64,000 nucleotides of DNA from Rhodoligotrophos appendicifer (GTDB taxonomy: Bacteria; Pseudomonadota; Alphaproteobacteria; Rhizobiales; Im1): the NCBI RefSeq assembly GCF_007474605.1, contig NZ_VHKL01000011.1, positions 1 through 64,000 of the forward strand, given 5' to 3'. Shown here piece after piece: positions 17,542 through 37,301 of this stretch (positions are counted from its first letter, which is position 1; the number at the start of each line of letters is the position of its first letter). The notes beneath the pieces are model-generated. The model was not told the DNA's origin. It saw only the letters and a list, made by a program, of their open reading frames with translations, and searched no databases. A program made the position numbers and the translations under genes.

Positions 17542-17584
17542 CTGGTCGTGTCCGCCTCCGCCCCTTCCCTCGGGACTGCAGATC

Positions 17585-18547: not shown

Positions 18548-18607
18548 TCTCCCCTCCATTTTGCTTCTTTCTGGCTTCCTCTCAGAAGAGGCAGCTCCGC
18601 AAGAATG

Positions 18608-21642: not shown

Positions 21643-21931
21643 TCAGCTCAACCTCTGTTTTTGCTCGTCACAAAGATGCCCAAGATGATTGGCGCTTCTT
21701 TGCGTGCCGACCTTCGGCGCTGAGACGCGCACCTTAAAGAGCACGGAGTGAGAAACAGCGAAAGTGGGGTGTGTCAGCCATACCAATCGCTCATATCACT
21801 TAAGGTCGCCCCTTCAACTCTGAACGGCGAGATACAGCTTGCGGGAGCACGCGGTCGCCAGGGGGGCAGAGGGAGGTCAGCTCAGGGTGTTCGAAGTGGC
21901 CTGCAGGCGACATCGCATGACGGTGAGAACC

Positions 21932-22531
21932 TCATCTCAAGGCGAACCTGGCTTCGAGGGCGCTGATTTGGAGGTTCGTCAGCTGCTGAATTCGAAGGCC
22001 CTTCGTCAATATTGAAAGCTTGGCGGTCTCCTCCAGCTCTTCTGATGCAAATACCGCCTCGTCCAGTGTCCGGCCGCATACCACAGAGCCGTGATTGGCG
22101 AGGAGCAGAGCGGCATGGGTGGGCGCTCTCGCCCGAACAAGCGGTTCTATTTCGGACGACCCCGGCATCGTGTAGGGGAGCAGGGGAACACGACCGACGC
22201 GCATGACCATGTAGGGGGTGATGGGCTGAATGGCGTTCTCCGGATCGATGTCGGCAAGGCACGATATGGCCGTCGCGTATGTCGAATGAAGATGGACTAC
22301 CGCCCGGGTATCAGGGCGGCCCCGGTAGAAACCGCGATGAAGCGGCAGTTCCTTTGTCGGGGGAGCGCCTGCGATGTGGTTCCAGTCGACGTCGAGTTTG
22401 GAGAGTTCCGGCGCTTCCAAAAGGCCCAGGCAGGCATTGGTCGGGGTTACGAGGAAACCGTCCTCCAGGCGTACGGAGATATTTCCGGAGGATCCAACAG
22501 TAAAACCGCGGCCGAATAGTAGGCGGCCCAT
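21932..22531 (-). CDS. otnC: 3-oxo-tetronate 4-phosphate decarboxylase (class II aldolase), N-terminal frameshift
   Basis: The class II aldolase/adducin-type enzyme would decarboxylate 3-oxo-tetronate 4-phosphate to dihydroxyacetone phosphate. Zinc ligands are visible in VVHLHSTY and LLANHGSVV, with GSSGNISVRL near the start. The in-frame ATG at 22531 gives 199 residues beginning at MGRLLFGRG. An ATG at 22566, overlapping the otnK stop as ATGA, opens MNETELRERICL, the expected family N-terminus, but reaches this frame only if one base is added near 22531. It is either a true frameshift mutation with internal re-initiation or a sequencing error. Confidence 0.82.
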   Translation of the reverse strand: MGRLLFGRGFTVGSSGNISVRLEDGFLVTPTNACLGLLEAPELSKLDVDWNHIAGAPPTKELPLHRGFYRGRPDTRAVVHLHSTYATAISCLADIDPENAIQPITPYMVMRVGRVPLLPYTMPGSSEIEPLVRARAPTHAALLLANHGSVVCGRTLDEAVFASEELEETAKLSILTKGLRIQQLTNLQISALEARFALR

Positions 22532-22562: not shown

Positions 22563-23822
22563 TCATGGTGCTGCCAGGGCTCGCAGTGCTTTGGCGTAGA
22601 AATCCGGGGCTCCGAAATTGCCGCTCTTCAGAGCCAGACGGATATCCCGGGCCCCGGCTTTCGCGGCCAAGGCGGGGATGCCGGGATCGATCTCGGGGCC
22701 GATCTCCAATGACCGCAGACCAAGGGCCGTGACGACGGCGCCGGACGTCTCGCCGCCGCCGATGGCCAGACGTTCGACGCCATTGGCAACGAGTTCCACG
22801 GCAAGCGTGCCGAAGAACTCCTCGATCCTCGCGGCCAACGCTTCTCGGCCATAGCGAGCCTGGGCCTCTGCCACAGTTTGCGGATCGGCAGTCGAATAGA
22901 CGATGGGGGCTGCCGCCTGATGGGAACGAACGAAGTGCAGGGCATCGGCCACCGTGAGCGTCGCCCCCATCAAGGTTGTCGGCTCGACGGCCAGTCCCGG
23001 ATGATCTTCGAGGTGGCGGGCGAGCTGGGCGCGGGAGGCTGGCGAGCAGGAGCCGGAGAGGGCGATTCCGGGCCCTGCCAGGCCAGAAAAGCTCCGACGC
23101 CCGGCACCGAGCCTGGCTTCCTTTCGAAAGTTATCCGGGATGCCGACAGCGATTCCGGAGCCGCCGGTGACCAGCCTGTGGCCGGCGATGGCGGCCCCAA
23201 TGGCGCGCAGGTCAGCGGGGGTGATCGCATCGACGACGACGAGGCGGCGGCCGGAGGCGGACTCCTGGGCCAGGGCCGCATCGATGGCTGCGGACCCGCG
23301 GCGCACAATTTCATAGGGAACGAGGCCAATCTCGCCTCTGGTCTGGCGGCGGAGCCAGCGGCGGATATCCGGGTCCGTCATGGGATTCAGCGGATGATGT
23401 TCCATGCCCGACTGGTCCAGCAGCCGGTCGCCGATGAAGAGGTGACCCTGGTAAAGGGTGCGGCCCGTCTCGGGAAAGACAGGGCAGACCACGGCGATTT
23501 CGGCGCCGAGCGCGTCAGCGAGCGCCTCGGCCACCGGGCCGATGTTTCCCTCGGGCGTGGAATCGAAGGTCGAGCAGTATTTGAACAGAATTTGGGTGCA
23601 GCCCTGGCGCTGTAGCCAGTGCAGCGCCGCCAGGGATTGCTCGACGGCGGCAGACGGGGCAATCGACCTCGTCTTAAGGGCGACCACGCCAGCCTCGCAG
23701 CCAATCGCGGCCTCGTCCGACGGGATGCCGACGAACTGGGTGGTCGCCATGCCACCCTTGGCCAGAGTGTTCGCCAGGTCGCTCGCGCCGGTAAAATCAT
23801 CCGCTATACAACCGAGAAGCAT
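22563..23822 (-). CDS. otnK: 3-oxo-tetronate kinase / four-carbon acid sugar kinase
   Basis: The 419-residue protein of the former DUF1537 family phosphorylates four-carbon acid sugars such as 3-oxo-tetronate. Family markers are IADDFTGASDLANTLAKGGM at the N-terminus, LFKYCSTFDSTPEGNIGPVAEAL, the ATP-site block IALSGSCSPASRAQL and the C-terminal GGGETSGAVVTALG. The next gene encodes the matching decarboxylase, a pairing known from tetronate and threonate catabolism. It lies 19 bp after the aldehyde dehydrogenase in a six-gene operon. Confidence 0.93.
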   Translation of the reverse strand: MLLGCIADDFTGASDLANTLAKGGMATTQFVGIPSDEAAIGCEAGVVALKTRSIAPSAAVEQSLAALHWLQRQGCTQILFKYCSTFDSTPEGNIGPVAEALADALGAEIAVVCPVFPETGRTLYQGHLFIGDRLLDQSGMEHHPLNPMTDPDIRRWLRRQTRGEIGLVPYEIVRRGSAAIDAALAQESASGRRLVVVDAITPADLRAIGAAIAGHRLVTGGSGIAVGIPDNFRKEARLGAGRRSFSGLAGPGIALSGSCSPASRAQLARHLEDHPGLAVEPTTLMGATLTVADALHFVRSHQAAAPIVYSTADPQTVAEAQARYGREALAARIEEFFGTLAVELVANGVERLAIGGGETSGAVVTALGLRSLEIGPEIDPGIPALAAKAGARDIRLALKSGNFGAPDFYAKALRALAAP

Positions 23823-23841: not shown

Positions 23842-25338
23842 TCAGGACAGGGAAAACCAAAGTGTCTTCGTCTGCAGATACTGATCCATGGCTTCCAGAC
23901 CTTTATCCCGCGCGAGAGACCCCGACCTCTTATAGCCGCCAAAGGGCGTCTTCACATCGCCTTCGCTGAAGCCGTTGATGGAGATGGTCCCGCAGGGAAG
24001 CAGACGGCCGAGCCTGAAGGCCTTGTCGATGCTCTTGGTGAAGACCGTCGCATGCAGGCCGTAGTCTGTATCGAGGGCGAGTTCGAGCGCCTCCTCAAAG
24101 CTCGCGACTTCCATCACCCCCAGAACTGGACCAAAGATTTCCTCCTGGGCAATGCGCATGTTGCCTTGAACACCCTCGAAGACGGCAGGATTGATGAAAA
24201 AGCCCCGGTCGTGGCCTTCTGAGTGGCCTCCATGCAGGAGACTGGCGCCTTCACCACGGCCGATTTCGATGTAGTTGCGGACACGCTCGAAATGCTCCTG
24301 GGTGACCATCGCGCCAATGGCTGTGTCAGGATCGAGGGGATTGCCCACCACCATCGTCTTCGTCTTCGCAATAACCTTATGAAGGAACTCATCCTTCAGT
24401 TTGCGATGGACGATCTGGCGCATATTCGCAGAGCAGTTCTGGCCGCCGTTCCAGAAGGCTGCATTCACTGCACTCTCGACAAGATTGTCGGTGATGTCGG
24501 CATCCTCGAGGATGATGAAAGGGCTCTTGCCGCCCATCTCCAGGCCGATTGGCTTGAGATTGCTTTCGGAGGAATATTTCAGAAAGTGGCGCCCTACTTC
24601 GGTCGATCCGGTGAAGGAGACAATGTCGATGTCGGAATGGCGACCGATGGCCTGGCCTGTGGTCTCCCCTAGGCCTGGCAACACGCTTAACACGCCGGGC
24701 GGTACGCCGGCCTCCGTCGCCAGGGCGGCGAGGCGCAGCGCCGTCAAGGGCGTCTGCTCTGCGGGTTTCACGATTGCCGAGCAGCCAGAGGCGAGTGCGG
24801 GTGCGAGCTTCCAAGCGCACATCAGGAGCGGGAAATTCCAGGGGAGGACCAGTCCCACAACGCCGGCTGGCTCCTTCACGATGAAGGATGCCACGGTTTC
24901 ACCGGTGGGAACGACCTTGCCGAAAACCTTGTCGATGGCCTCGGCATACCATTGAAAAAAGGTCGGCACTTCGTTGCCGATCTCATGCAGACAATCCTTG
25001 ATCGTTTTTCCGCTGTCCACGGATTCAAGGACAGCCAGCTCCTCTTTATTCTCGCGGACCAAGGCAGCGAGCTTCAGCAGCACTTCCTTGCGAAATTCGG
25101 GAGCCGAACGCGACCACGTGCCCGCCTTGAACACGGCGCGGGCAGATGCAACGGCCCGGTCAACGTCCTGGATACTGCAGTCGCGTACAGTTCCCAGGAT
25201 TTCGCCGGTGGCGGGATTGACGTTCTCGAACACGTCGCTGCCCCCTGACGTGTAATCACCATCGATGAAGGCCTGGGAGTGAAAGGTCAGGGATGAGGCT
25301 ATGCGTCGATAGTGATCATGCGAACTCAAGGATGACAT
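23842..25338 (-). CDS. NAD(P)-dependent aldehyde dehydrogenase
   Basis: This 498-residue ALDH-superfamily enzyme carries the catalytic cysteine in NGGQNCSAN, the general base in GLEMGGKSP, PWNFPL and the Rossmann motif FTGSTEVG. It resembles gamma-glutamyl-aminobutyraldehyde and related semialdehyde dehydrogenases, but specificity is open. It lies 36 bp downstream of the ABC ATPase in the operon that also holds an aldolase and tetronate enzymes, so an aldehyde released by the HpcH-type aldolase is a plausible substrate. Confidence 0.92.
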   Translation of the reverse strand: MSSLSSHDHYRRIASSLTFHSQAFIDGDYTSGGSDVFENVNPATGEILGTVRDCSIQDVDRAVASARAVFKAGTWSRSAPEFRKEVLLKLAALVRENKEELAVLESVDSGKTIKDCLHEIGNEVPTFFQWYAEAIDKVFGKVVPTGETVASFIVKEPAGVVGLVLPWNFPLLMCAWKLAPALASGCSAIVKPAEQTPLTALRLAALATEAGVPPGVLSVLPGLGETTGQAIGRHSDIDIVSFTGSTEVGRHFLKYSSESNLKPIGLEMGGKSPFIILEDADITDNLVESAVNAAFWNGGQNCSANMRQIVHRKLKDEFLHKVIAKTKTMVVGNPLDPDTAIGAMVTQEHFERVRNYIEIGRGEGASLLHGGHSEGHDRGFFINPAVFEGVQGNMRIAQEEIFGPVLGVMEVASFEEALELALDTDYGLHATVFTKSIDKAFRLGRLLPCGTISINGFSEGDVKTPFGGYKRSGSLARDKGLEAMDQYLQTKTLWFSLS

Positions 25339-25374: not shown

Positions 25375-26484
25375 TCAGGCAATGACAAGATCGGTGGCCG
25401 TATCGATCAGCAGGCAACGGTTGAGATCTATGTCGATGTCGAGGGATGTCTTGGCACCGCCCAGTTGGTTCGAAGGCAATTCGGCAGTCGTGACACTCCC
25501 GCCCAGCTTGAAGGACGCATATGAGCGGGAGCCGGTCGGCTGGAGGATGTCGATTACGATCGTACGGCGCACCACACCCTCGGACGGTGGCGTCGATGAG
25601 GATCGGGACATATGATCAGGCCGGATCCCAATCTGCACAGCTGCGCCCTCCGCTAAACCCAAGTCTCTCGTTTTGGCCCTGGGCAGGGGAAAGATGTCGC
25701 CGTCGGTCATGCGGATCGTGATGTCATCCGGAGCTGGTCCGTGCGACAGGGTTCCGCTCAGAAAATTGATCGTTGGGGTGCCAAGGAAGCTTGCTACGAA
25801 CTTCGTTCGCGGCTTGTTGTAGAGCTCGAGCGGCGTTCCAATCTGCTCAATTCGACCCGCGCGCATCAGCAGGATGCGGTCCGCCAAGGTCATTGCTTCC
25901 ACCTGGTCGTGAGTCACATAGATCATCGTCTGGCGCAGTTCGCCGTGCAGTCGCTTGATCTCTGTCCTCATCTCCTCGCGCAGCTGGGCATCCAAATTCG
26001 ACAAGGGCTCGTCGAAAAGGAATACCCGGGCATGGCGGACGATTGCGCGACCAATGGCAACGCGCTGGCGCTGGCCGCCGGAGAGCTGCTTGGGAAGGCG
26101 GTCCAGATAAGGGGTGAGTGCAAGCAACGCGGCCGCCTCCCTTACCCGGGAGTCGAGCTGATCTTTGGGGAATTTACGGGCTCGAAGGCCGAATGCAATG
26201 TTCTCATAAACGTTCAAGAACGGGTAGAGGGCGTAGCTCTGAAAGACCATAGCGACGTCGCGGTCACGCGGACTGAGGCGGTTGACCGCCTTGCCGTCGA
26301 TCTCAATGGTCCCCGCATCGATCGGTTCCAGGCCGGCAATGGATCGGAGTAGCGTGCTCTTGCCGCATCCCGAAGGTCCGACAATGACCACGAACTCGCC
26401 ATCGCCTACCTCAAGATCCACATCATCGACGACACGAAGATCGCCGAAGCTCTTACGGATGCCGCTCAGCCTGACTGTCCCCAT
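25375..26484 (-). CDS. CUT1-type ABC transporter ATPase (UgpC/MalK-like)
   Basis: The 369-residue protein has Walker A GPSGCGKST (36-44), Q-loop VFQSYALYP, signature LSGGQRQR, Walker B VFLFDEPLSNLDA, switch histidine YVTHDQVEA and a C-terminal TOBE-type domain. No permease or binding protein lies in this operon. The importer at 33717-36968 lacks an ATPase and is of the matching CUT1 type, and both sit under similar GGTATA sites, so this is probably its energy subunit. Confidence 0.92.
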   Translation of the reverse strand: MGTVRLSGIRKSFGDLRVVDDVDLEVGDGEFVVIVGPSGCGKSTLLRSIAGLEPIDAGTIEIDGKAVNRLSPRDRDVAMVFQSYALYPFLNVYENIAFGLRARKFPKDQLDSRVREAAALLALTPYLDRLPKQLSGGQRQRVAIGRAIVRHARVFLFDEPLSNLDAQLREEMRTEIKRLHGELRQTMIYVTHDQVEAMTLADRILLMRAGRIEQIGTPLELYNKPRTKFVASFLGTPTINFLSGTLSHGPAPDDITIRMTDGDIFPLPRAKTRDLGLAEGAAVQIGIRPDHMSRSSSTPPSEGVVRRTIVIDILQPTGSRSYASFKLGGSVTTAELPSNQLGGAKTSLDIDIDLNRCLLIDTATDLVIA

Positions 26485-26504: not shown

Positions 26505-27599
26505 TTAGAGATCAACCGACTTAGGTTCATCAGCACCCGCCCCGAACCGCTCGGCATTGCGCTGCAGCTTCAACCGCCATTGCGGATCATCAACCACCGA
26601 CCTGTTCACAATTGAGGAAGGAAGGCGACCGCCGAGCGCCTCAAGCACCGCCCTCACATCCGCTGCGCCATTACCGGCGATGCATTCGTTGGTCCAGCAG
26701 AGCGCGTGAGGGCTGAGCACGACATTGTCGAGCTTCAGGATGGGGTCGTCATCGGCTGGAGGTTCCTGGGCAAAGACGTCGAGGCCGGCGCCTGCGATTG
26801 CTCCTTGCTGCAGTGCCTCGGTCAGGGCGACCTGGTCCACGATGCGCCCGCGCGCAGTGTTGATGAGCAGGGCCGTGGGCTTCATGAGACCTATCGCACG
26901 GCGATTGATGAGCTTCTCGGTGGCGGCATTGAGCGGACAATTGATGACGAGAATGTCCGCCTGTCCGAGGACATCGTCGAAATCGAGAAGGTCCACGCCG
27001 AGCGCTGCTGCCTGTTCCGTGCTCGCATAGGGGTCGTGGGCGATCATCCGCAGATCGAAGGGCTTCAGCAGCCGGAACATCTCCGATCCGATGTTGCCGA
27101 GGCCGATCGACCCTAAGGTCTTTCCAACAAGTCCAGTGCCGACGAAACTTCCCTTTTCTGCAAAGCCTCGGGCTCCCCGTCGCGCGAGACGGTCCTTCTC
27201 CAGCAGCTTCAGGGTCAGCGCCAGGATCAAGGCAATGATCGAGGTTGCAACCGGCCTGCGAACGCCATCAGGCGTATTGACCAAGGCAATTGAGCGGCGC
27301 GTGAGGGCATCCACGTCGACGCTGTCGAAGCCGACACCGAAACGGGCGACGAGGGCCAAGCGATCGCCATCGGGGAGGCTTTCGGCCGTTACGAGAGGAT
27401 CATCTACAATGAGGGCATCCACGCCCTCAAGGTCCGCGGATTCGATCCTATTGCGCATTGGCAGGAAGCGGATCGCGATGCGGGGGTCACCGCTCAGCGG
27501 AGACAGATCAAAATCCGGATAAGCGAACTCACCCGCATCGTTCAGAAAGTCACCGCTGAGGGCCACGACGAAGCGCTCATCGCCATGCGGGACGCTCAT
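26505..27599 (-). CDS. D-2-hydroxyacid dehydrogenase
   Basis: The 364-residue NAD-dependent enzyme has Rossmann motif GSIGLGNIGSEM, substrate-binding arginine in NTARGRIVD, the glutamate in GLDVFAQEP and the catalytic histidine in VVLSPHALCWTNEC. It would interconvert a D-2-hydroxy acid and its 2-oxo acid. The ATG at 27599 overlaps the aldolase stop (ATGA). The long arginine-rich extension further upstream is a shadow of the aldolase gene. Pairing with an HpcH/HpaI aldolase suggests handling of pyruvate-like or longer 2-oxo acids. Confidence 0.9.
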   Translation of the reverse strand: MSVPHGDERFVVALSGDFLNDAGEFAYPDFDLSPLSGDPRIAIRFLPMRNRIESADLEGVDALIVDDPLVTAESLPDGDRLALVARFGVGFDSVDVDALTRRSIALVNTPDGVRRPVATSIIALILALTLKLLEKDRLARRGARGFAEKGSFVGTGLVGKTLGSIGLGNIGSEMFRLLKPFDLRMIAHDPYASTEQAAALGVDLLDFDDVLGQADILVINCPLNAATEKLINRRAIGLMKPTALLINTARGRIVDQVALTEALQQGAIAGAGLDVFAQEPPADDDPILKLDNVVLSPHALCWTNECIAGNGAADVRAVLEALGGRLPSSIVNRSVVDDPQWRLKLQRNAERFGAGADEPKSVDL

Positions 27600-28375
27600 A
27601 TGCCGGTCTTCTCGCGGACCTGCTGGATCGCATCGGTCAAGGCGCTCTGCAGGAGCCATACGTCGCCGGAATAACAGAGGAAATCGACGCCAGCCTGACG
27701 GAGCCGAACGCCGGCAGCAACGTCTTGGACGAGGTAGCCGAAAGACTTGCCGTGCTTCTTGCATGCATCGGCCACGCGCTTTTCGGCGGCGATGAAGGTG
27801 GGATGATCGAACTGACCGGGAATGCCCATGGAGCAAGTCAGATCGAAGTGCCCGATCCAGAGACAATCCACGCCCTCCAGGGCGGCCAAGGCGTCTGCAT
27901 TCTCGACGCCCAAGGCCGTTTCGATCTGGGGGAAGAAGGCAGTCTTCCTATTGGCCTTGTCGAGCTTTTCCAGAACAGGGCCACCAGAGTAGCGATCATG
28001 GGCGATGCGCAAAGCAACGCCCCGCTTGCCCGTCGGCACGTATTTCATGGAGTCGATAATGCTCTTCGCCTCTTCGACGGTCTCGACCATTGGCACCATG
28101 ATGCCTTCGGCGCCCATGTCGCATGCCCGAGCAACGTGATCGTAGCGTTTGGACGGGATGCGCACGATGCTTGGCACATTGCCCGCCTGAAGATACCGAA
28201 GCATCGATTTCAACGTCTCGAAGGAAAAGCCGCTGTGCTCGAGGTCGACGAAGGCGAACTGGCAGCCCGTGGCGGCAAGGATCTGGCCGATTCCAGGGGT
28301 GGAGAATTCGACCAAGAAGGTGCCGATCTTGAGGTCCTTGGTCTCCAGCAGTTCACGAATCGTGGCGCCCGACAT
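27596..28375 (-). CDS. HpcH/HpaI-family aldolase
   Basis: The 259-residue class II (metal-dependent) aldolase of the HpcH/HpaI fold typically makes or cleaves 4-hydroxy-2-oxo acids. Conserved blocks are FVDLEHSGFSFE, VRIPSKRYDHVARACDMGAEGIMVPMVET, PQIETALGVENADAL and WIGHFDLTCSMGIPGQF. GAGGGAGGAAAG precedes the ATG. It is the first gene of the minus-strand operon, 30 bp downstream of the ATG-CA-GGTATACC-AA-CAT palindrome and divergent from hyuA. Confidence 0.92.
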   Translation of the reverse strand: MSGATIRELLETKDLKIGTFLVEFSTPGIGQILAATGCQFAFVDLEHSGFSFETLKSMLRYLQAGNVPSIVRIPSKRYDHVARACDMGAEGIMVPMVETVEEAKSIIDSMKYVPTGKRGVALRIAHDRYSGGPVLEKLDKANRKTAFFPQIETALGVENADALAALEGVDCLWIGHFDLTCSMGIPGQFDHPTFIAAEKRVADACKKHGKSFGYLVQDVAAGVRLRQAGVDFLCYSGDVWLLQSALTDAIQQVREKTGI

Positions 28376-28404
28376 GAACTTTCCTCCCTCTGCAAAAACC
28401 TATC

Positions 28405-28422
28405 ATGCAGGTATACCAACAT
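28405..28422. promoter_or_regulatory. Putative NanR-type operator 1 (aldolase operon)
   Basis: ATG-CA-GGTATACC-AA-CAT is an 18-bp inverted repeat containing GGTATA on both strands, 30 bp before the aldolase start. It shares the GGTATA core with three other sites at units around the NanR-like regulator gene. Confidence 0.5.
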
Positions 28423-28484
28423 AAACTCGACTGCGTCAATCAGACTGGCTCGAGGGTGAGCGAGCGTTGACCGTATAATATGAA

Positions 28485-28503
28485 TGGTATAACAGGTATG
28501 CCA
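28485..28503 (+). promoter_or_regulatory. Putative NanR-type operator 2 (hyuAB promoter)
   Basis: TGGTATAACAGGTATGCCA combines the direct repeat GGTATA-N3-GGTATG with inverted arms TGGTAT/ATGCCA. A perfect TATAAT (28474-28479) lies just upstream, so the site probably overlaps the transcription start of hyuAB. It matches the site before the regulator gene in 17 of 19 positions. Confidence 0.6.
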
Positions 28504-28552
28504 AAGTGTCGGTCTTTTGCGGCTGTGCTGCCCTCGAGGAAGGCGATCGAGA

Positions 28553-30583
28553 ATGAGCTATATCGTTGGGGTCGATATCGGTGGGACATTCACCGATTTT
28601 GTCGCTTATGATCGATCAGCGGGCACAATCCGCGCCTGGAAGACTTTGAGTACACCGGAAAATCCTTCCGCTGCCGTTCTCAACGGCCTGTCGAGCTTAG
28701 GCTCACTTGCCAGCGTCGACTATCTCAAACTCGGGACCACAGCGGCCACAAATGCTCTGTTGGAAAGCAAGGGCGCGCAGGTCGCCTATGTCACCACCAA
28801 GGGGTTCCGCGATGTTCCGTTCATTCAGCGCGGCGGCCGTCGCTCCCATTACGACCTCGGTTGGCGCAAGCCGAAGCCGCTGTGTCTGCGGCAGAATTCA
28901 GTCGAGATCGACGAGCGGATCACGTCCGACGGCAGTGTCATCAAGGAGTTGGACCTGGATTCGGCCCGGCTGACACTGGAAAATCTGTTGAGCCAGGGCA
29001 CGATTGAAGCCGTTGCCGTCAATCTTCTCTTTTCCTATGCAAATCCGGCGCATGAATTCGCTTTGCGGACCCTATTGTCCGATCTTGCTCCCGACCTCCC
29101 GGTGTCGATCTCCTATGATGTCCTGCCGAAATGGAAGGAATATGAGCGGGCCTCGACGACGATCGCCGATGCGTTCATCAAACCTTTGATCACCCGCCAG
29201 ATGACTTCGATGGAGAGGCGCCTGAAGGACGAGGGATTCACGGGGCGGTTCGTCGTCATTCGCTCCAATGGCGGCGAGATGACGGCGGATGCCGCATCGA
29301 AGCTGCCGGTCCACCTCGCCCTGTCCGGGCCCACGGGCGGCGTCATTGCCTCGCGGGTCATGGCGAAGCTGCTCGACATCGAAAATGTCGTCACGCTCGA
29401 CATGGGAGGAACGTCGACAGACGTCGCGACGGTGATCGGTGGACGAGAGCGCTTCACGACCGAGTTCCAGATCGAATATGGCAAGCCGATCCAGATCCCG
29501 ATGATCGACATCCGCACGATCGGCGCCGGCGGAGGCTCCATCGCTTGGATGGACAAAGCGGGCATGCTTCACGTCGGTCCGCAAAGCGCAGGCGCCAATC
29601 CGGGGCCGGCCTGCTACGGGTTCGGCGGCACCGAGGCGACCGTGACGGACGCAAATGTCGTGCTGGGGCGGATCAGTCCGAGCAACTTCCTTGGCGGCGG
29701 CATGCGACTCGACGCGGAGGCCGCTGCGCAAGTGGTGAGCAATGTCGCCGACAGGATCGGTCTGAGCCTCGAAGACACGGCGCTCTCCATCGTGCGGATC
29801 GCAAACAACAACATGGTGGGTGCTCTGCGGGCCGCACTCATCGAAGAGGGGCTGGATCCGCGTGAATTCACGCTTGCAGCCTTTGGCGGGGCAGGTCCTG
29901 TCCACATCGCCGATTTGATGCGGGAGGCGAACATCCCGACCGGCATCGTGCCGAATTTTCCCGGGCAGTTCTCGGCCTATGGATTTACCCTGACTGACGG
30001 CCGAGTGGATCGTCATCGTTCTGTGCCGATGCTGTCCCGGACATTCGACACGGAGCGGGCGAACGCCGTGCTGCGGCAGCTTTCCGATGATTGCAGCGAC
30101 GATCTTGCGGGGCAGGGTTATGGTGCCGGTATCACCGTGTCCAATGCCCTGGAAATGCGTTACTTCGGGCAGAACCACGAGCTTGACGTCGAGATCGGGA
30201 CGCAGACTTTCGGTCCCGACACCATCGACGGGCTCTGGGAGGCCTTCCACCGAATCCATGAGAGCCGCTACGGCTATCGGATTCCTGGAGAGATGATCGA
30301 GGTCGTGAATTTCAAATCCACCGCCATCGCCCAGACGGACAAGCCCGACATTCCAAGACTCCCGGAGGCGGACGGGCCACCGGAACCGGTAGGGACGCGG
30401 TGGGTGACCTTCGACAGCCGGCTGGAGACGCGGATCTTTAACCGGTCTTCGCTGAGGGCAGGACATCACATCATCGGCCCCGCGATCATCGAGGAGAGCG
30501 CATCGGTCACGCCCTTGCCTCCAGGACAGACGGCCCGTGTGGATGCCTACGGCAATCTCATCATTTCCTTTTCGCAGTCATAG
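28553..30583 (+). CDS. hyuA: Hydantoinase/oxoprolinase subunit A (HyuA)
   Basis: The 676-residue ATP-dependent subunit of the hydantoinase/oxoprolinase family couples ATP hydrolysis to opening a cyclic amide. The ASKHA-type nucleotide motif GVDIGGTFTDF is at residues 5-15. TLDMGGTSTDVA and GAGGGSIAW follow, with GPQSAGANPGPACYG typical of the family. GAGGAAGG precedes the ATG at 28553; the 12-codon upstream extension is rejected. It is transcribed divergently from the aldolase operon and followed after 11 bp by hyuB. Confidence 0.92.
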   Translation: MSYIVGVDIGGTFTDFVAYDRSAGTIRAWKTLSTPENPSAAVLNGLSSLGSLASVDYLKLGTTAATNALLESKGAQVAYVTTKGFRDVPFIQRGGRRSHYDLGWRKPKPLCLRQNSVEIDERITSDGSVIKELDLDSARLTLENLLSQGTIEAVAVNLLFSYANPAHEFALRTLLSDLAPDLPVSISYDVLPKWKEYERASTTIADAFIKPLITRQMTSMERRLKDEGFTGRFVVIRSNGGEMTADAASKLPVHLALSGPTGGVIASRVMAKLLDIENVVTLDMGGTSTDVATVIGGRERFTTEFQIEYGKPIQIPMIDIRTIGAGGGSIAWMDKAGMLHVGPQSAGANPGPACYGFGGTEATVTDANVVLGRISPSNFLGGGMRLDAEAAAQVVSNVADRIGLSLEDTALSIVRIANNNMVGALRAALIEEGLDPREFTLAAFGGAGPVHIADLMREANIPTGIVPNFPGQFSAYGFTLTDGRVDRHRSVPMLSRTFDTERANAVLRQLSDDCSDDLAGQGYGAGITVSNALEMRYFGQNHELDVEIGTQTFGPDTIDGLWEAFHRIHESRYGYRIPGEMIEVVNFKSTAIAQTDKPDIPRLPEADGPPEPVGTRWVTFDSRLETRIFNRSSLRAGHHIIGPAIIEESASVTPLPPGQTARVDAYGNLIISFSQS

Positions 30584-30594
30584 GAGAGGCTCCC

Positions 30595-32472
30595 ATGAAG
30601 TTCTCCGCGAACAAGCTGTATATCGAAAAGTACGTCAAATGCGCCAATTGCGGTGTGCTGATCTACGGGCCGTCCATCGCGGCGCGGGATGGAAGCGGGG
30701 ACGTATTCTGTTCGGACTGGTGTGTCGACTGGAAGGCCGCGCGGGCTGCAAGCGATGCAGAACCGCGGCTGCCATTGCCGCGTGAGGCACGCGAGCCAAG
30801 CCTTCAGGGCCGCGACATGGTGGCCATGAAAATTCTCGAGGGCAATCTGGTCTCGATCTGCCGAGACATGGGCATCACGTTGATGAAGACGGCCTATTCG
30901 ACGATCTTCAGTGAGTCGCTCGACTTCACCTGCGGCCTCTTCGCGGCCAATGGCGACATGATTGCTGTGGGCGAATTCTGCCCGTCGATGATCTCGGGTA
31001 TGCCGATGATCATCAAGACCGTCATCCAGGAGATCGAGCCCGGGGAGATGGAGGAGGGCGACATCCTGCTCCACAACGATCCGTATCGGGGCGGCATGCA
31101 TACGCCGGAGCATCTGTTCTTCAAGCCGATCTTCTTCGAGGGTGAGCTGGTCGGCTTTTCAGGGGCGATCGGCCATGTCGCCGAGATCGGAGGCGTGGCT
31201 CCGGGGAGCTTCTACGCTGAAGCGCGCGACATCTTTGCGGAAGGTCTGCGCGTCCCGCCGGTCAAGATCAAACGGCGCGGCGAGGACAATATCGACGTCT
31301 GGAAGATCCTCCTCGCCAATGTGCGCACACCGCGGACGAATCATGGAGATTACCGCGCGTTGATCGCGGCGGTCGATCTGGGCGAGCGGCGCACAATCGA
31401 ACTGCTGCAGAAGTATGGCAAAGAACATTTCACGCAGATCACCTCCAGTCTGATGGACTATGCCGAAGAGAGGATGCGCGCGGAGATCAGCGACATTCCA
31501 GACGGGCACTATTCATTTCAAGATTTCATGGAGGATGATGGTCTGGTCGACCAAGAACTGCGCATCCATGTAGACCTGTTCGTCCAGGGAGACGAGATCG
31601 TTGCCGATTTCAGCAAGAGCTCACCGCAGGCGAAAGGGCCCATCAACACGCCCTTGAGCATTCCCACGGCGGCCACCCAAAACGCAATCCTTCAGTTGAC
31701 CGACGGTTCGATTCCGAAAAATTCGGGCTGCTTCCGTCCGATCAAGATCATCGCGCCGCCCGGTTCGTTGCTGAACGTGAACTATCCCGCCCCCGAAGTC
31801 GGGGGAAACACCGAATGTCATCCGAGGATTGCCTATACGGTGTTGGGTGCATTGGCCACGTGCCTGCCGGGCAGGGTGCCTGCTGCGGATGGTTCTACTT
31901 GGTCGAACTTCCTGTTCGGCGGAACCGACCCGAGAACCGGAGAATATTACTGCTGCTACGACGTGCATATCGTCGGCTGGGGTGGATCGGCCTCGGGAGA
32001 TGGGAACAGCGCTGTCGGCAGCATCAACGGGAATTGTCCCATGGTGCCCATCGAAGTTTATGAAACGCGATTTCCATGGATTGTGGAAGAGTACTCCCTG
32101 GTGCCGGATTCCGGGGGAGCGGGACAGTTTCGTGGTGGGCTCGGCGTCAGGAAAGTTGTGCGGTGCGATGCCGACGAAATCACCTTCAGCCATATGGGCG
32201 ATCGCCACAAGCGGGGTTCCTGGGGCCTCAATGATGGGGAAGAGGGCCAGCCCGGCTCATTCCTCTTCGAAGAGGCGGGCACGCAGGGCTGGAAGCCGGT
32301 CACGCAAGTGTTCAACAAGGTGTCTTCAAGCAAGTTCGCCAACCTGACCGCGCATCGCGGCGATCGAATTCAGATCACCACACCAGGCGGCGGCGGCTAC
32401 GGCCTGCCGAGCGACAGAGAGACTGCATCCACAGCGGAGGACTTTTCGGAGGGATTCGTGTCGCGACCGTAA
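30595..32472 (+). CDS. hyuB: Hydantoinase/oxoprolinase subunit B (HyuB) with N-terminal zinc ribbon
   Basis: The 625-residue partner of HyuA carries the family core from about residue 72: LEGNLVSICRDMGITLMKTAYSTIFSES, then LHNDPYRGGMHTPEH, GHVAEIGG and the C-terminal TPGGGGYG. Unlike the two other HyuB proteins in this window, it begins with a Cys4 module (C16-x2-C19, C39-x3-C43) that should bind zinc. Acetone and acetophenone carboxylases, relatives of this family, use separate small zinc subunits, so this may be a fused equivalent. GGAGAGGCTCCC precedes the ATG. Confidence 0.9.
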   Translation: MKFSANKLYIEKYVKCANCGVLIYGPSIAARDGSGDVFCSDWCVDWKAARAASDAEPRLPLPREAREPSLQGRDMVAMKILEGNLVSICRDMGITLMKTAYSTIFSESLDFTCGLFAANGDMIAVGEFCPSMISGMPMIIKTVIQEIEPGEMEEGDILLHNDPYRGGMHTPEHLFFKPIFFEGELVGFSGAIGHVAEIGGVAPGSFYAEARDIFAEGLRVPPVKIKRRGEDNIDVWKILLANVRTPRTNHGDYRALIAAVDLGERRTIELLQKYGKEHFTQITSSLMDYAEERMRAEISDIPDGHYSFQDFMEDDGLVDQELRIHVDLFVQGDEIVADFSKSSPQAKGPINTPLSIPTAATQNAILQLTDGSIPKNSGCFRPIKIIAPPGSLLNVNYPAPEVGGNTECHPRIAYTVLGALATCLPGRVPAADGSTWSNFLFGGTDPRTGEYYCCYDVHIVGWGGSASGDGNSAVGSINGNCPMVPIEVYETRFPWIVEEYSLVPDSGGAGQFRGGLGVRKVVRCDADEITFSHMGDRHKRGSWGLNDGEEGQPGSFLFEEAGTQGWKPVTQVFNKVSSSKFANLTAHRGDRIQITTPGGGGYGLPSDRETASTAEDFSEGFVSRP

Positions 32473-32531
32473 TGCGCGGGAGCATGGTCAGATCGGCCAA
32501 TAGATTTAAGGCCGTGACCTCTGAAAACTGG

Positions 32532-32825
32532 TTATTGCACCAGAGAACCGATTGTGACTTCTTTCACCTTGACCATGTCGGACGTGGCAAGGTCGAAACT
32601 CACGAAATGCTGAGTTTCAAGGTGCAATTTAAAGGCGGATTCGTCGGAATACACTTCGTACAGCAAAAACATAGACTCGTTATCGACTGTTCGAACCACG
32701 TCGAATCGATGGCAGCCCTCTTCAAGTCGCAAAGAATCCCTGGCGTTCTCTGTCACCAGTTTTGAAAACGCCTCTATCATGCCGTCGTGAACCGTGAATT
32801 GAACAATCACTACGAAGTCCGACAT
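32532..32825 (-). CDS. Antibiotic-biosynthesis-monooxygenase (ABM) domain protein
   Basis: The 97-residue ferredoxin-like dimeric alpha-beta barrel protein contains FVVIVQFTVHDGMIEAFSKLV, EEGCHRFDVV and FLLYEVYSDESAFKLHLETQHF, the usual ABM layout as in LsrG-type isomerases. The ATG at 32825 matches the family start; the ribosome site is weak. It is divergent from the regulator gene, with operator 3 between them, and convergent with hyuB. Possible roles are isomerisation or cofactor-free oxidation of a pathway intermediate. Confidence 0.85.
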   Translation of the reverse strand: MSDFVVIVQFTVHDGMIEAFSKLVTENARDSLRLEEGCHRFDVVRTVDNESMFLLYEVYSDESAFKLHLETQHFVSFDLATSDMVKVKEVTIGSLVQ

Positions 32826-32895
32826 GAGTACATTCCGCTTGGCGAGCAGTCGACGCCGGAGGACGGCATGGACAGAACGTTCAGAGAGTGGCAAG

Positions 32896-32914
32896 TGGTA
32901 TAACAGGCATACCA
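32896..32914 (+). promoter_or_regulatory. Putative NanR-type operator 3 (regulator/ABM divergent promoter)
   Basis: TGGTATAACAGGCATACCA has TGGTAT/ATACCA arms around 7 bases and the direct repeat GGTATA-N3-GGCATA. It lies between the divergent ABM and regulator genes, so it probably mediates autoregulation. Confidence 0.6.
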
Positions 32915-32984
32915 TTAAGGTATCGACCTATTGGTCCAAAGTCAACGAAGCAGCCTTCGTCGCTGGCAAAATCATGGAAGTTCA

Positions 32985-33713
32985 ATGACCCAGGAAATCA
33001 CTCGTCCTTCAGAGCAGATCGAGCGTCGGCGCCTTTCTGACGAGGTCCGCGAACGCTTTCAGAAAATGATCGCTTCGGGTGAATATGCTGCGGGAGACAT
33101 CCTGCCGTCTGAACGTGAATTGATGGAGCGTTTCGGAGTGGGGCGGCCCGCAATCCGGGAGGCGCTTTTCTCCCTGCAGAGGATGGGACTGGTCGCGCTG
33201 ACGAGCGGAGCGCGCGCTCGGGTCACCGTTCCCTCGGCGGATCGGCTCATTCATGAGCTGTCGGGTGCGGCTGCGCATATGCTGTCTACAGGCGAAGGCG
33301 AGCGGGCATTTCAGGACGCCCGATTGTTCTTCGAGGTGGGACTTGCGCGGCATGCGGCGCAGTTCGCCAGCGAAAGCGATGTCGAGGGCCTAAAGGCCGC
33401 TCTCGATGCCAACGAGGCGGCGCTCGATGACATCGAGACCTTCCAGCGTACCGACGTCGATTTTCACAGGCACCTCGCGATGATTCCCCGTAACCCGATC
33501 TTCAAAGCCATACACGATGGTCTCGAGACGTGGCTGACCAAGCAACGGACGGTATCCCTGATGGTCCCGGGGGCCTCTCATGTTGCAAACCGTTACCATC
33601 AGCAAATATATCGTGCCGTCGCCGATCGGGCGCCGGACCGCGCCGAACAGGCTATGCGAGACCATTTGCTGAGCGTTTCGGAGCTCTATTGGCAGTCAAC
33701 GCGGCGGAAGTGA
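32985..33713 (+). CDS. GntR/FCD-family regulator, NanR-like
   Basis: The 242-residue DNA-binding protein has an N-terminal winged helix (LPSERELMERFGVGRPAIREALFSLQRMGLV) and a C-terminal FCD ligand domain. Segments GARARVTVPSADRLIHELSG, TDVDFHRHLAMIPRNPIF and AEQAMRDHLLSVSE closely recall E. coli NanR, the sialic-acid repressor, which binds GGTATA repeats. GGAAG precedes the ATG at 32985. GGTATA-type sites occur before this gene, hyuAB, the aldolase operon and the ABC importer. No sialic-acid catabolic genes are present, so its inducer is probably different. Confidence 0.88.
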   Translation: MTQEITRPSEQIERRRLSDEVRERFQKMIASGEYAAGDILPSERELMERFGVGRPAIREALFSLQRMGLVALTSGARARVTVPSADRLIHELSGAAAHMLSTGEGERAFQDARLFFEVGLARHAAQFASESDVEGLKAALDANEAALDDIETFQRTDVDFHRHLAMIPRNPIFKAIHDGLETWLTKQRTVSLMVPGASHVANRYHQQIYRAVADRAPDRAEQAMRDHLLSVSELYWQSTRRK

Positions 33714-33716
33714 TCT

Positions 33717-34547
33717 TCAGCCTTTGACGGCACCCATGCTAATCCCGCGAACGATGAATCGTTGCAGGGTCGCCACGGCAAGGAACGCGGGCAGGACTCC
33801 TAGTACCGACATGGCGGAGATCTTCGCCCAGAAGGTGGACTGGGCGCCGAAATACTGTGTGACTTGAACGGGGAAGGTGATCACGTTCGACCGCGTGAGA
33901 ATAAGGGCGAACAGGAACTCGTTCCAGGCGAAGATAAAGGTGAACATGGCGGTCGCGAACAGACCTCCGGTGGTCATCGGGATGACGACCTTTGCCAAGA
34001 TCTGCCAATGGTTCAGACCATCCACAAGCGCGCTGTCCTCCAGGTCCAGGGGGACATCCTTAATGTAGCCGCGCATCATCCAGATTACATAGGGAAGATT
34101 AAACGCGGTGTAGATCAGGATCAGGCCGAAATATGTGTCGGATATTCGAAGCGCCGAGTAGAGCAGGAATATGGGAAAGGCGATTGCGACCGGGGGCAGG
34201 AGACGCTGACTGATGATCCAGGTCGACAGGTTCTCGCCGCCCGTTTTGAACCGGGCGATGCTGTAGGCGGCAATCGTGCCCATGACCATGGCAAGGATGG
34301 TGCTCACGCCGGCGATGACGATGCTATTGCCGATGGCGCGCACATCTCCGCCTCTGAAAAGCTGAATGAAATTGTCGAAGCTCAGACTCGAAGGAAGCCA
34401 TGTCGGCGGATAAGAGAAGATCTCGTCCGGAGTCTTGAAAGAGACTGCAAAGAGCCAATAGATCGGAAACAGAAAGACAACCGTCACCGCCAAGGCGAGG
34501 AACGTGTTCAGAAGCTTGCCAATGAGGCTGCCGTCGCCGTGGGTCAT
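33717..34547 (-). CDS. CUT1-type ABC permease (MalG-like)
   Basis: The 276-residue inner-membrane permease has about six transmembrane helices and the EAA loop in PLDLEDSALVDGLNHWQIL. The N-terminal MalG-type region reads FPIYWLFAVSFKTPDEIF. The ATG at 34547 overlaps the stop of the partner permease (ATGA). It is last in the minus-strand operon binding protein - MalF-like - MalG-like. No ATPase is encoded here. Confidence 0.9.
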   Translation of the reverse strand: MTHGDGSLIGKLLNTFLALAVTVVFLFPIYWLFAVSFKTPDEIFSYPPTWLPSSLSFDNFIQLFRGGDVRAIGNSIVIAGVSTILAMVMGTIAAYSIARFKTGGENLSTWIISQRLLPPVAIAFPIFLLYSALRISDTYFGLILIYTAFNLPYVIWMMRGYIKDVPLDLEDSALVDGLNHWQILAKVVIPMTTGGLFATAMFTFIFAWNEFLFALILTRSNVITFPVQVTQYFGAQSTFWAKISAMSVLGVLPAFLAVATLQRFIVRGISMGAVKG

Positions 34548-35437
34548 GAGGCGATCCTGAGGCGCTTGATCGCAATGATCACGCCGATCGAGAACAGGAC
34601 GGCCATGAGGATCGTCAAGGCGCCGGTATAGCTGGTGGAGAAGGCACTGAACCCCTGAAGGTAGACATAGATCGAAATGGTCTCGCTCATTGAGCCGGGA
34701 CCGCCCCGGGTCATGACCCAGACGATGTCGAAGAGCCGGATGAGGTCCAGGCCCCGAATAAGGACAGCCACAGCCAGAATTGGTGCAATCGACGGGATCA
34801 CTACGCGCCGGAAGATCCGCCAAGCAGAGGCGCCGTCAACACGGGCCGCTTCCAGCAGGCTTTGATCGACGGTGCTCAAGGCGGCGATCGAGAGGAGAAG
34901 CATGAATGGCGTCCACTGCCACACTTCGGCGATCAGGATCGCGGGATAGATCCATTCAGGCTTCACCGTCCAGAGAATGTTTACCGGCTCACCAGCAAGG
35001 AAAGTGAGGATCTGGTTCACGGGACCGAAGCGGTCATTGAACATCAGGCGCCACATCGCACCGGCGACGATGGGAGCGATGACCGTCGGCATGATCAACA
35101 GGCCGAGCAGTATGGGGCGGCCGAACATAGGCCGCTGGAAAAGGAGCGCTCCCGCAAGACCAAGGATTGTCTCCACAGGCAGTGCGATGGCGGTGATGAA
35201 GAGGGTATGCCCAAAGGCAGCCCAGAGACGAGTATCGCCCAGCATCCGGGAGTAATTCCTGAGACCGACAAAGCTCGTCTGGCCCGAGGTCATCGTGATG
35301 TTCTGAAAGCTGACGACTAGGCTGTAGATCAGGGGAAACAAGCCGATGGCCAAGAGCACCAGGGTTGCTGGAAGCACGAAGGCCCATCGGTTTCCCTTGC
35401 CTATGGTCCAGCTCACCTCAGAGGTCGACCCTGCCAT
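34544..35437 (-). CDS. CUT1-type ABC permease (MalF-like)
   Basis: The 297-residue membrane protein has the MalF-type pattern (FPLIYSLVVSFQNI near the start) and EAA loop LLEAARVDGASAWRIFRRVVIPS. The ATG at 35437 is preferred: the longer frame to 35500 would run into the hairpin at 35488-35517, which lies between this gene and the binding-protein gene. It works with the downstream MalG-like permease. Confidence 0.88.
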   Translation of the reverse strand: MAGSTSEVSWTIGKGNRWAFVLPATLVLLAIGLFPLIYSLVVSFQNITMTSGQTSFVGLRNYSRMLGDTRLWAAFGHTLFITAIALPVETILGLAGALLFQRPMFGRPILLGLLIMPTVIAPIVAGAMWRLMFNDRFGPVNQILTFLAGEPVNILWTVKPEWIYPAILIAEVWQWTPFMLLLSIAALSTVDQSLLEAARVDGASAWRIFRRVVIPSIAPILAVAVLIRGLDLIRLFDIVWVMTRGGPGSMSETISIYVYLQGFSAFSTSYTGALTILMAVLFSIGVIIAIKRLRIAS

Positions 35438-35487
35438 CGCGTGCTCATGTGTGAGGGCCTCAATCAACACCAGATTAAAAGATCGCA

Positions 35488-35517
35488 GGCGCCGGAACAA
35501 AGGTTTGTTCCGGCGCC
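35488..35517. terminator. Intercistronic hairpin between binding protein and permease genes
   Basis: GGCGCCGGAACAAA pairs with TTTGTTCCGGCGCC over 14 bp with a 2-base centre. It begins 11 bp after the binding-protein stop (minus-strand direction). Such structures often stabilise or partly terminate transcripts so that the binding protein is made in excess over the permeases. Confidence 0.6.
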
Positions 35518-35528
35518 GCAGCGATCAT

Positions 35529-36968
35529 TTACTTTGGATAGGCGTTCGGCTTCGACGACCAATCCTTGTAGGCGGCGGTCTGAGCTTCCAGGCCGATCGA
35601 CTCGGTGATCTCATCCCATTCCTTGGCTGCCAGATCCAATGCCTCCTTTGGGTCGGTCCCGGACAGCCCCGACTGAATGGCCCGCGCGAGGGCATCCTGG
35701 TACTGGAAGGTACCTTTGATGGAGAGATCAAGCAGACCTTTGGTGCCACCCTCCTTCAGCATGTCGAGATACTGGCCGGCCTGTGGCCAGCGGGACCGGT
35801 ATTCGGCACTCGCGTAATGGGAAGTCCTGAAAGGATCACGCTGAGCATAGGGCAGCTGGACGCGCTCCAGACTGGTTTGCATGCTGTTCATCCATTGGGC
35901 AAACAGATAGGCCGCTTCCTTGTTCTTGCTGGTGGAGGGAACGGCTAGAATCATGCCGGCTGCAAGTTCGGGTGCATCCCCCGGCGGCAGCGCATACCCC
36001 ACCTTTCCAGCAATCTGCGTCTTGGGAACCCAGTTCAGCTCCTTGCGGTCCAGGCCATAGCCTGCCGACCAGCGGCCATAAGGAGGCCAGGACATCGTCA
36101 TGGCGAGATCGCCGGCAAGCCATGCGCTGAGGACCTCAGTGTAGCCCCAGTCCTGGACACCGGGAGGTTGGCACTTGGTTTCCTTCACCAGATCGGTCAG
36201 AGCCTTGATGCCCTGCTCGCTGTTGATCGTGGCCTTCATCGTGTTGGGGTCGAAAAACTTTCCGCCTTCGACTCTAAAGCGCGACATGAAGCCATACTCG
36301 ACCTGACCGCGACTCAGGATCATGCCCGCGCCATAGACCTTCGGGCCGAGCTTTTCTGTGAAAAACTCACAGATGTTGTTGAACTCTTCCCAGGTCTTGG
36401 GCGGGGCTAGGTCTGCATTATACTTAGCCTTATACGCTTCCTTATTGGCAGCGTCGCCGAAGAGGTCTGTGCGGTAATAGAGAAGATGGACGTCGCCATC
36501 ATCGGGGAGTCCGTAAATCTTGCCCTGATAAGTCATCCAGCTGTCGCGGAATGCCGGAGCAATGTCCTGAATTTCCTGCCGATAGCCAAACTTGTCGATG
36601 AAGGCATCCAGAGGCTCGAGCGCGCCCGCGCTCGCCATATCAGTGAGCCAAGCCGGCACTAAATTGATCAGGTCGTAGGCGCCAGTGCCAGCCTGGTGTT
36701 CAGCCATGACCTTGGTGAACATTTCAGTGTGGGGCAGTTCGATTACATTGATCTTGATGCCCGTCAGCTTCTCAAAAAGGGGGCCCGAAAAATCAATGGG
36801 GTCGAGGGCTTGAAGTCCCGCTTCCGAGGTATAGTTCAGTGTTGTTCCGGAAAATTTCTTTGCTTCCGTAAGGGCAATATCCGTGGGGCTCTGTGCCCAG
36901 GCCGCGCCAATCACACCCAGTGTTATAAGTGGCGTCAGACAGCTCGCTAGAAGATACCTTCGAAACAT
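35529..36968 (-). CDS. Extracellular solute-binding protein, CUT1/family 1
   Basis: The 479-residue periplasmic protein has a signal peptide ending near IGAAWAQS, followed by a family-1 binding fold. Visible markers are PAWLTDMASAGALEPLDAFI, YGLPDDGDVHLLYYRTDLF, PKTWEEFNNI and MSWPPYGRWS. The size is typical of binders for sugars, polyols or glycosides. It is first in the transporter operon, about 90 bp downstream of GGTATA-type operator 4. The ATPase is probably the one at 25375-26484. Confidence 0.9.
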   Translation of the reverse strand: MFRRYLLASCLTPLITLGVIGAAWAQSPTDIALTEAKKFSGTTLNYTSEAGLQALDPIDFSGPLFEKLTGIKINVIELPHTEMFTKVMAEHQAGTGAYDLINLVPAWLTDMASAGALEPLDAFIDKFGYRQEIQDIAPAFRDSWMTYQGKIYGLPDDGDVHLLYYRTDLFGDAANKEAYKAKYNADLAPPKTWEEFNNICEFFTEKLGPKVYGAGMILSRGQVEYGFMSRFRVEGGKFFDPNTMKATINSEQGIKALTDLVKETKCQPPGVQDWGYTEVLSAWLAGDLAMTMSWPPYGRWSAGYGLDRKELNWVPKTQIAGKVGYALPPGDAPELAAGMILAVPSTSKNKEAAYLFAQWMNSMQTSLERVQLPYAQRDPFRTSHYASAEYRSRWPQAGQYLDMLKEGGTKGLLDLSIKGTFQYQDALARAIQSGLSGTDPKEALDLAAKEWDEITESIGLEAQTAAYKDWSSKPNAYPK

Positions 36969-37301
36969 GTGCCTCTCCCCTGCCGATGATCAGCCGCGTG
37001 GGTTGCTCCATAGGGCTCTCAGGAGGTCCCGCCCGCAAAGCTATCCACCTTTTAAGCTATACACCTAGTATACCAAACACTGCAAGATTTGATGCGGGGC
37101 GGGAGAGGGACTGGCTGCATGTGAGGTGAACCGCAGATCCACCAGACCCGTCACTTGAGAGAGCAATTATGGGGAGCCACATAAAAAAATATAATCTTCG
37201 AAAGAAAAGTGAGTCATCGGATGTCAGATCACATTCGCCGAGGCGGTCTGAGAATGCCGGCGGGCGCACCTTGCGTGGATCATAAAAGGGGGATGGACCC
37301 T
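36969..37301. other. Divergent intergenic region (333 bp)
   Basis: This separates the binding-protein gene (minus) from the frameshifted DUF3616 gene (plus). It contains operator 4 at 37057-37075. No gene is apparent. Confidence 0.6.
37057..37075 (-). promoter_or_regulatory. Putative NanR-type operator 4 (ABC importer)
   Basis: On the minus strand this reads TGGTATACTAGGTGTATAG, with direct repeat GGTATA-N3-GGTGTA at the same spacing as in operators 2 and 3. It lies about 90 bp before the binding-protein start. The second half is degenerate, so this is the weakest member. Confidence 0.45.

Follow-up and report, generated by a model that had tools for sequence, protein, structure and literature searches.

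The window, i.e. the whole stretch of 64,000 nucleotides of Rhodoligotrophos appendicifer that was analysed, holds an island of catabolic, transport and regulatory genes together with several candidate operator sites (Table 1). The gene calls of the first-pass annotation for the HyuA/HyuB subunits, the HpaI-type aldolase, OtnK, OtnC and the ABC importer all held in NCBIfam and Pfam scans. The two tetronate enzymes, OtnK and OtnC, both passed their NCBIfam equivalog cut-offs, and the HyuB-type subunit is extended at its N-terminus by about 73 residues, which contain CxxC motifs. The hpaI-2hadh-ATPase-aldh-otnK-otnC run, the importer operon, the ABM gene and the regulator gene are distributed over promoters that carry the sites.

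Table 1. Genes and candidate operator sites of the island (positions in the window)
Feature	Position	Strand	Support
OtnC, Aldolase_II type	21932..22531	-	NF043034, 269 bits (cut-off 250)
OtnK, 3-oxo-tetronate kinase	22563..23822	-	NF043035, 544 bits (cut-off 350)
Aldehyde dehydrogenase	23842..25338	-	PF00171; below specific NCBIfam cut-offs
UgpC/MalK-type ABC ATPase	25375..26484	-	NF008653, 433 bits (cut-off 432)
D-2-hydroxyacid dehydrogenase (2HADH)	26505..27599	-	PF02826/PF00389; NCBIfam below cut-offs; predicted ATG at 27599, family scans covering 26505-27566
HpaI/HpcH-type class II 2-oxo-acid aldolase	27596..28375	-	PF03328; PDB HpcH/HpaI aldolases; below specific NCBIfam cut-offs
Weak site, perfect right half and degenerate left half, 25 bp upstream of hpaI	28400..28418	+	matrix 8.2
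Operator TGGTATAACAGGTATGCCA, divergent promoter region hpaI (-)/hyuA (+)	28485..28503	+	scans, matrix, nanA operator match
HyuA-type subunit	28553..30583	+	PF01968/PF05378; CapA model 515 bits (cut-off 1000)
HyuB-type subunit	30595..32472	+	PF02538 from residue 74
ABM-domain small protein, distantly LsrG-like	32532..32825	-	PF03992; NF007791, 44.9 bits (cut-off 135)
Operator TGGTATAACAGGCATACCA, between ABM (-) and regulator (+)	32896..32914	+	window scan, genome scan, matrix
Possible alternative in-frame TTG start of the regulator	32931	+	
NanR-subfamily GntR/FCD regulator	32985..33713	+	NF003011; Pfam GntR and FCD; PDB 6on4
MalG-type permease	33717..34547	-	PF00528
MalF-type permease	34544..35437	-	operon position; 35-59 % identity to permeases of loci L149-L157 and L168
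CUT1-type sugar-binding protein	35529..36968	-	PF01547; sugar-binding PDB relatives, best 9e-16
Weaker site TGGTATACTAGGTGTATAG, upstream of the gene for the binding protein	37057..37075	-	matrix 10.3; 1 mismatch to GGTATA-N3-GGTATA

The FCD regulator, which had been likened to E. coli NanR, is indeed a member of this subfamily: it scored 277 bits against NF003011 (cut-off 260), with LldR as the runner-up model at 81 bits, E. coli NanR itself reaching 409 bits and an FCD paralog (L012) 142 bits. Its closest PDB match was 6on4, E. coli NanR (E 3.4e-53), followed by a match at 2.6e-12. A regulator tree was built on 72 rows (48 of 120 were dropped beforehand as redundant, and long branches were flagged). 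The NanR family, including all its branches, formed a single clade (63 rows, 99/97), within which three subclades were resolved: a marked sialate one of 5 rows (100/97), an apionate-type one of 30 rows (99/87) and one of 9 rows for the HpaI cassette (96/87). The window regulator has no firm branching place at the base; it lies outside the sialate rows and in no marked subclade, and by path it is nearest to the HpaI/ABM-cassette rows. As the two congeneric genomes compared hold no close copy of it (best identity 31 %), the island looks accessory.

The residues of the E. coli NanR pocket are named in section 9 of PMC8012715. The window regulator keeps the metal ligands D172, H176, H222 and H244 and the carboxylate-binding R128 and R203. 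Other FCD paralogs of these genomes have all four metal positions in 8/9 cases, R128 in 7/9 and R203 in 5/9, so that the metal ligands and the two arginines are by themselves no proof of a NanR-like ligand; judged from its residues, the kept set would say that the ligand is a carboxylate, not which one. At the Neu5Ac-contact positions N165, H214, N215, S218 and Q221, the window protein has I, A, S, A and Y (positions 214-215 were gapped in an earlier alignment). N165, H214 and Q221 vary in sialate-type relatives as well; N215 and S218 are present in all five sialate-type rows and absent from the window regulator.

Ahead of the Ser33 column there are 17 residues in the window regulator, 32 in E. 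coli NanR and 9-11 in eight relatives, and in 8/9 relatives an in-frame start codon lies 0-2 bases past the operator. According to PMC8012715 (Horne et al.), three dimers assemble cooperatively through the 32-residue N-terminal extension of E. coli NanR, and a truncated version of the protein binds as a single dimer. Since the window N-terminus is short compared with this extension, a single regulator dimer per 19-bp site would be the natural reading.

The long sites proposed at 28485 and 32896 were correctly placed. TGGTATAACAGGTATACCA at up to 3 mismatches was found only at these two positions of the window and never in 100 shuffles, and they are the only exact occurrences of TGGTATAACAGGYATRCCA in the genome of 5,593,515 bases, where one further place appeared at 3 mismatches (the reversed control gave 3 matches at the same threshold). 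With a scoring matrix made from nine sites of other genomes (maximum 32.8), they scored 28.2 and 28.1, the next non-overlapping place of the window reaching 10.7. Both have TGGTATAACAGG in common with the nanA operator of E. coli K-12, which reads TGGTATAACAGGTATAAAGGTATA in the genome record; the 28485 site repeats its first 15 bases in a row and the 32896 site its first 12. Candidate NanR-type operators thus stand at the predicted target promoters. The 28485 operator also overlaps a 10-of-12 sigma70-like match directed to hpaI, although such matches are no commoner than in shuffles (4 vs 3.0).

The other two of the four sites first listed fared less well: the one at 37057 is weaker, and the one at 28405 is a half-site, whose right half CAGGTATACCA is perfect and the best half-site of the window, with a poor score over its full length. 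A genome scan for GGTATA-N3-GGTATA, suggested in the same annotation, gave 8 places with no more than 1 mismatch, and 3 of the 8 are promoters of the island; the reversed control gave 18, and the pattern as such is therefore not enriched genome-wide. A place at 11993, with 1 mismatch to the direct repeat, lies inside an open reading frame and was taken as chance. Likewise, TGGTAT-N7-ATACCA at up to 2 mismatches occurred at 45 places of the genome vs 58 for the control, and no genome-wide regulon was found. The third-best matrix place of the window (21767-21785, 10.7) lies 125 bp before an operon encoding an OpuAC-type ABC system and an amidase (16129-21642).

Across the order (397 genomes), TGGTATNACAGGTATACCA with no more than 1 mismatch occurred 12 times, in 11 genomes (reversed control, 3), and 11 of the 12 occurrences, two of them in the window, were at NanR-like loci. 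The exception, in G220, lies on a contig piece with an ABC-type match only and was taken as chance. Since these very loci supplied the pattern, what is informative is its rarity elsewhere. The motif stands 15-34 bp before the regulator match in all nine loci L149-L157; L158 has a 2-mismatch form, and the rest of L158-L168 has none near the gene at that threshold. Upstream of the regulator in five loci close in regulator or context (L039, L040, L044, L045 and L073), no operator was seen even with 2 mismatches allowed.

In its treatment of NanR, PMC4494728 sets this regulator aside as a non-palindromic exception that binds direct repeats TGGTATAW. Here, the operator fits GGTATA-N3-GGTATA and the 19-bp inverted repeat TGGTAT-N7-ATACCA equally, and the data do not separate them; the direct-repeat picture of the first-pass annotation is one of two equal readings. 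The inverted repeat (up to 1 mismatch, within 450 bp before the gene) was present in 28/81 loci, many of which are close relatives and hence not independent, and every other spacer from 0 to 15 gave 0/81. In the 300 bp upstream of the regulator, the inverted repeat (7-base spacer) was found in 37 of 98 loci and the direct repeat (3-base spacer) in 20 when 1 mismatch was allowed; with 2 allowed, the numbers were 43 and 64, respectively. The direct repeat matches more loci at 2 mismatches because GGTATACC is its own palindrome, and this speaks against a simple palindrome. The sites behind the operator column counts were picked for resembling the inverted repeat, and these counts are no proof for it. 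An inverted repeat with a 15-base spacer was frequent at 2 mismatches (33/81 and 35/98 loci; L039-L118, L149-L168), perhaps as a second half-site.

Related loci were surveyed for their gene content. Of the 174 relatives, 80 loci were kept: 64 contain OiaX-like genes (48 of them also ApnL-like genes), 3 contain nanA (all Escherichia), 4 contain HpaI plus 2HADH and 9 none of these. Two loci were tested against NCBIfam, and ApnL and OiaX in L042 and OiaX in L085 were over cut-off. The regulators of L042 and L085 also exceed the NanR cut-off of 260 (333 and 354 bits); together with 62 further loci (L039-L118), they lie near D-apionate genes. Across the order, 73/397 genomes have a NanR-like gene with an E-value no worse than 1e-40, and an HpaI-like gene (at least 35 % identity) stands beside it in 10 of 29 short loci from those genomes. 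When the loci of relatives were extended, a NanR-ABM-HpaI-2HADH-SBP-MalF-MalG-ATPase cassette appeared, with gaps where the choice of open reading frames failed; in high-GC loci this choice was a rough coding score, and some calls are probably in the wrong frame. In G227 (L152/L169), the cassette continues with an ApnL-like lactonase, OtnK (51 %), OtnC (50 %) and an L-threonate dehydrogenase (over cut-off, 439/350). Because this genome carries most of the set in one run, the separate operons of the window can be read as one set, the window having an aldehyde dehydrogenase and hyuAB in place of the ApnL-like gene of the cassette.

ApnL-like genes were found in L151-L155, L157, L167 and L168. 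The cassette proteins score 590-703 (493 for the L167 one) vs a cut-off of 750, and being below it they are relatives rather than proven apionate lactonases; an OiaX-like RuBisCO-like protein in L154 also remains below its equivalog cut-off. L151 and L154 have a molybdopterin aldehyde-oxidase-type gene set (seen by domain scan in L151) with an ApnL-like gene, divergent from the NanR-like gene.

The absence of a sialate aldolase, stated in the first-pass annotation, was confirmed: no NanA was over cut-off in the whole genome (best of 4 matches, 101.7 bits vs 382). For the epimerase and kinase, also listed there as absent, E. coli NanE, NanK and NanQ had no match at E 1e-15 among the open reading frames called in window positions 20001-44000. 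A true sialate regulon with its nan genes in another part of the chromosome or on another contig would suit the NCBIfam name and the 15 bases shared with the nanA operator, but is hardly credible given the genome-wide NanA result, the position of the regulator outside the sialate clade and the other catabolic genes held by the loci of its relatives. The gene context of the related loci points the same way, with ApnL and/or OiaX in 64/80 and nanA in 3/80. The cyclic amide also put forward as a substrate found no support. A cyclic amide or hydantoin regulon, in which HyuAB would be the key enzyme and the sugar genes would be passengers, draws on the best-scoring operator lying 50 bp before hyuAB and on a close HyuB occurring in 5/397 genomes, 4 of them operator genomes (P 1e-6, which includes our own genome, the source of the query; without it, 3/4, P 3e-5). 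We nevertheless judge it very unlikely: HyuAB is below every specific NCBIfam cut-off (515/1000 and 315/1000 bits against equivalogs of known function, i.e. caprolactamase/hydantoinase), the close HyuB of the four other genomes lies apart from NanR in other contexts without the operator, and the nine operator loci L149-L157 are built on HpaI, 2HADH and a sugar importer, with no HyuAB match. HyuAB as a substitute for the ApnL-like lactonase was considered as well, HyuAB being present in G000, G120 and G051, all without a full ApnL-like gene; this idea was rejected, as the two occur together in G016 and the remaining HyuAB loci differ in context.

Apionate is a branched aldonate, and an ApnL/OiaX-type route for D-apiose and D-apionate is known. 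Could D-apiose or D-apionate proper be the substrate, via this route? The ApnL-like genes of the cassette loci, the OiaX-like protein of L154 and the apionate branch within the same regulator family all speak for it. We regard it as unlikely, however, since the window is without ApnL, OiaX and OiaK as scored and the ApnL-like and OiaX-like proteins of the relatives fall below the equivalog cut-offs. No ApnL-like match was found in the R. appendicifer genome; the same search, with relatives included, gave matches in 7/8 genomes (2 with low scores only). Genome-wide, neither OtnI (2-oxo-tetronate isomerase; best 284/325) nor LtnD (L-threonate dehydrogenase; best 187/350) was over cut-off.

The locus is thus a genuine NanR-type regulon, local in extent and probably directed at a substrate other than sialate, whose operator and cassette are conserved. 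The central guess of the first-pass annotation, a NanR branch re-used for another acid sugar, stands, supported by the non-sialate island, the NanR-type operator and the relatives near apionate genes. Given the cassette, the threonate and ApnL-like genes and the 64/80 loci near D-apionate genes, we place the regulator in a sugar-acid (apionate/tetronate-type) branch of NanR. Its natural substrate is probably a sugar acid of the apionate or tetronate type, or the corresponding parent sugar, and not sialic acid. We consider it likely that a NanR-family repressor and NanR-type operators run a sugar-acid island, in which induction by such a substrate turns on the importer and the HpaI/OtnKC enzymes. 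Points against this are the pocket residues shared with other FCD paralogs, the lack of a marked subclade for the window regulator, the five related loci without an operator, the missing ApnL-like, LtnD and OtnI genes of the genome and the ApnL-like cassette proteins that fall below their cut-off. Repression, effector and order of reactions would be as follows. A repressor dimer would bind the operator before its own gene and that of the divergent hpaI/hyuA promoter and, perhaps more weakly, the promoter of the ABC importer. A sugar acid in the metal-containing FCD pocket would release it, and the sugar importer, aldehyde dehydrogenase, 2-hydroxyacid dehydrogenase, HpaI aldolase and OtnK/OtnC would be expressed, the last two feeding DHAP. 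With both of these enzymes over cut-off, a route ending in 3-oxo-tetronate and DHAP is likely.

A bolder joint reading, quite unlikely as a whole, is that NanR-type repressors mainly sense plant-type sugar acids, with one dimer on a palindromic operator; the sialate NanR of E. coli, long at the N-terminus and acting on three direct repeats, would be an offshoot, and the window regulon would serve an aldonate route to DHAP. An apionate-type branched aldonate would be oxidised at C2 by 2HADH, the HpaI aldolase would split off formaldehyde in a retro-aldol step to give 2-oxo-tetronate, this would be isomerised, perhaps by the ABM protein, and OtnK/OtnC would finish to DHAP. As described in PMC7610986, HpcH/HpaI aldolases take hydroxypyruvate as nucleophile, and the member RhmA takes formaldehyde as electrophile. 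Within the openly licensed literature searched, which makes for weak evidence, we found neither a description of this 2HADH/HpaI/OtnKC route nor a link between apionate and a GntR regulator.

Compared with E. coli NanR, which acts on (GGTATA)3 operators, the window system shares the NCBIfam subfamily, the FCD fold, the TGGTATAACAGG core and the 3-base spacing of the first two repeats, but has no sialate genes, a shorter N-terminus and a single 19-bp site instead of three repeats, the third E. coli repeat having no counterpart. NanR-named regulators of D-apionate clusters (rhizobia, Aureimonas) are alike in family and in the TGGTAT-N7-ATACCA operator type. Those clusters have ApnL/OiaX whereas the window has HpaI/2HADH/OtnKC, and the R203 position, kept in the window, is His in 10/10 apionate rows among those listed. 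Bacterial tetronate catabolism, as given in PMC12540250 (LtnD, OtnI, OtnK and OtnC), uses an Aldolase_II-type OtnC with OtnI in a four-step route. The window resembles it in having OtnK and an OtnC of this type over cut-off and differs in lacking LtnD and OtnI from the island and in standing under a NanR-type regulator.

The NanR regulator family is therefore wider than its name, and as NCBI gives it automatically to regulators of apionate and HpaI/OtnKC clusters too, the name by itself is a poor guide to the use of sialic acid by soil and plant bacteria. With the relatives, which offer many natural operators and pockets, it can be asked how one family changed its ligand and whether the direct-repeat grammar that PMC4494728 gives for NanR is general or special to E. 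coli. In L164, a nanA-bearing locus of the order, TGGTATAAC-N9-GTTATACCA stands before NanR, a spacing unlike that of E. coli and of the window. Mesorhizobium loci (e.g. L085, at 19079) have a second inverted-repeat site about 9 kb from the regulator, which in L085 stands 54 bp upstream of a further cluster gene.
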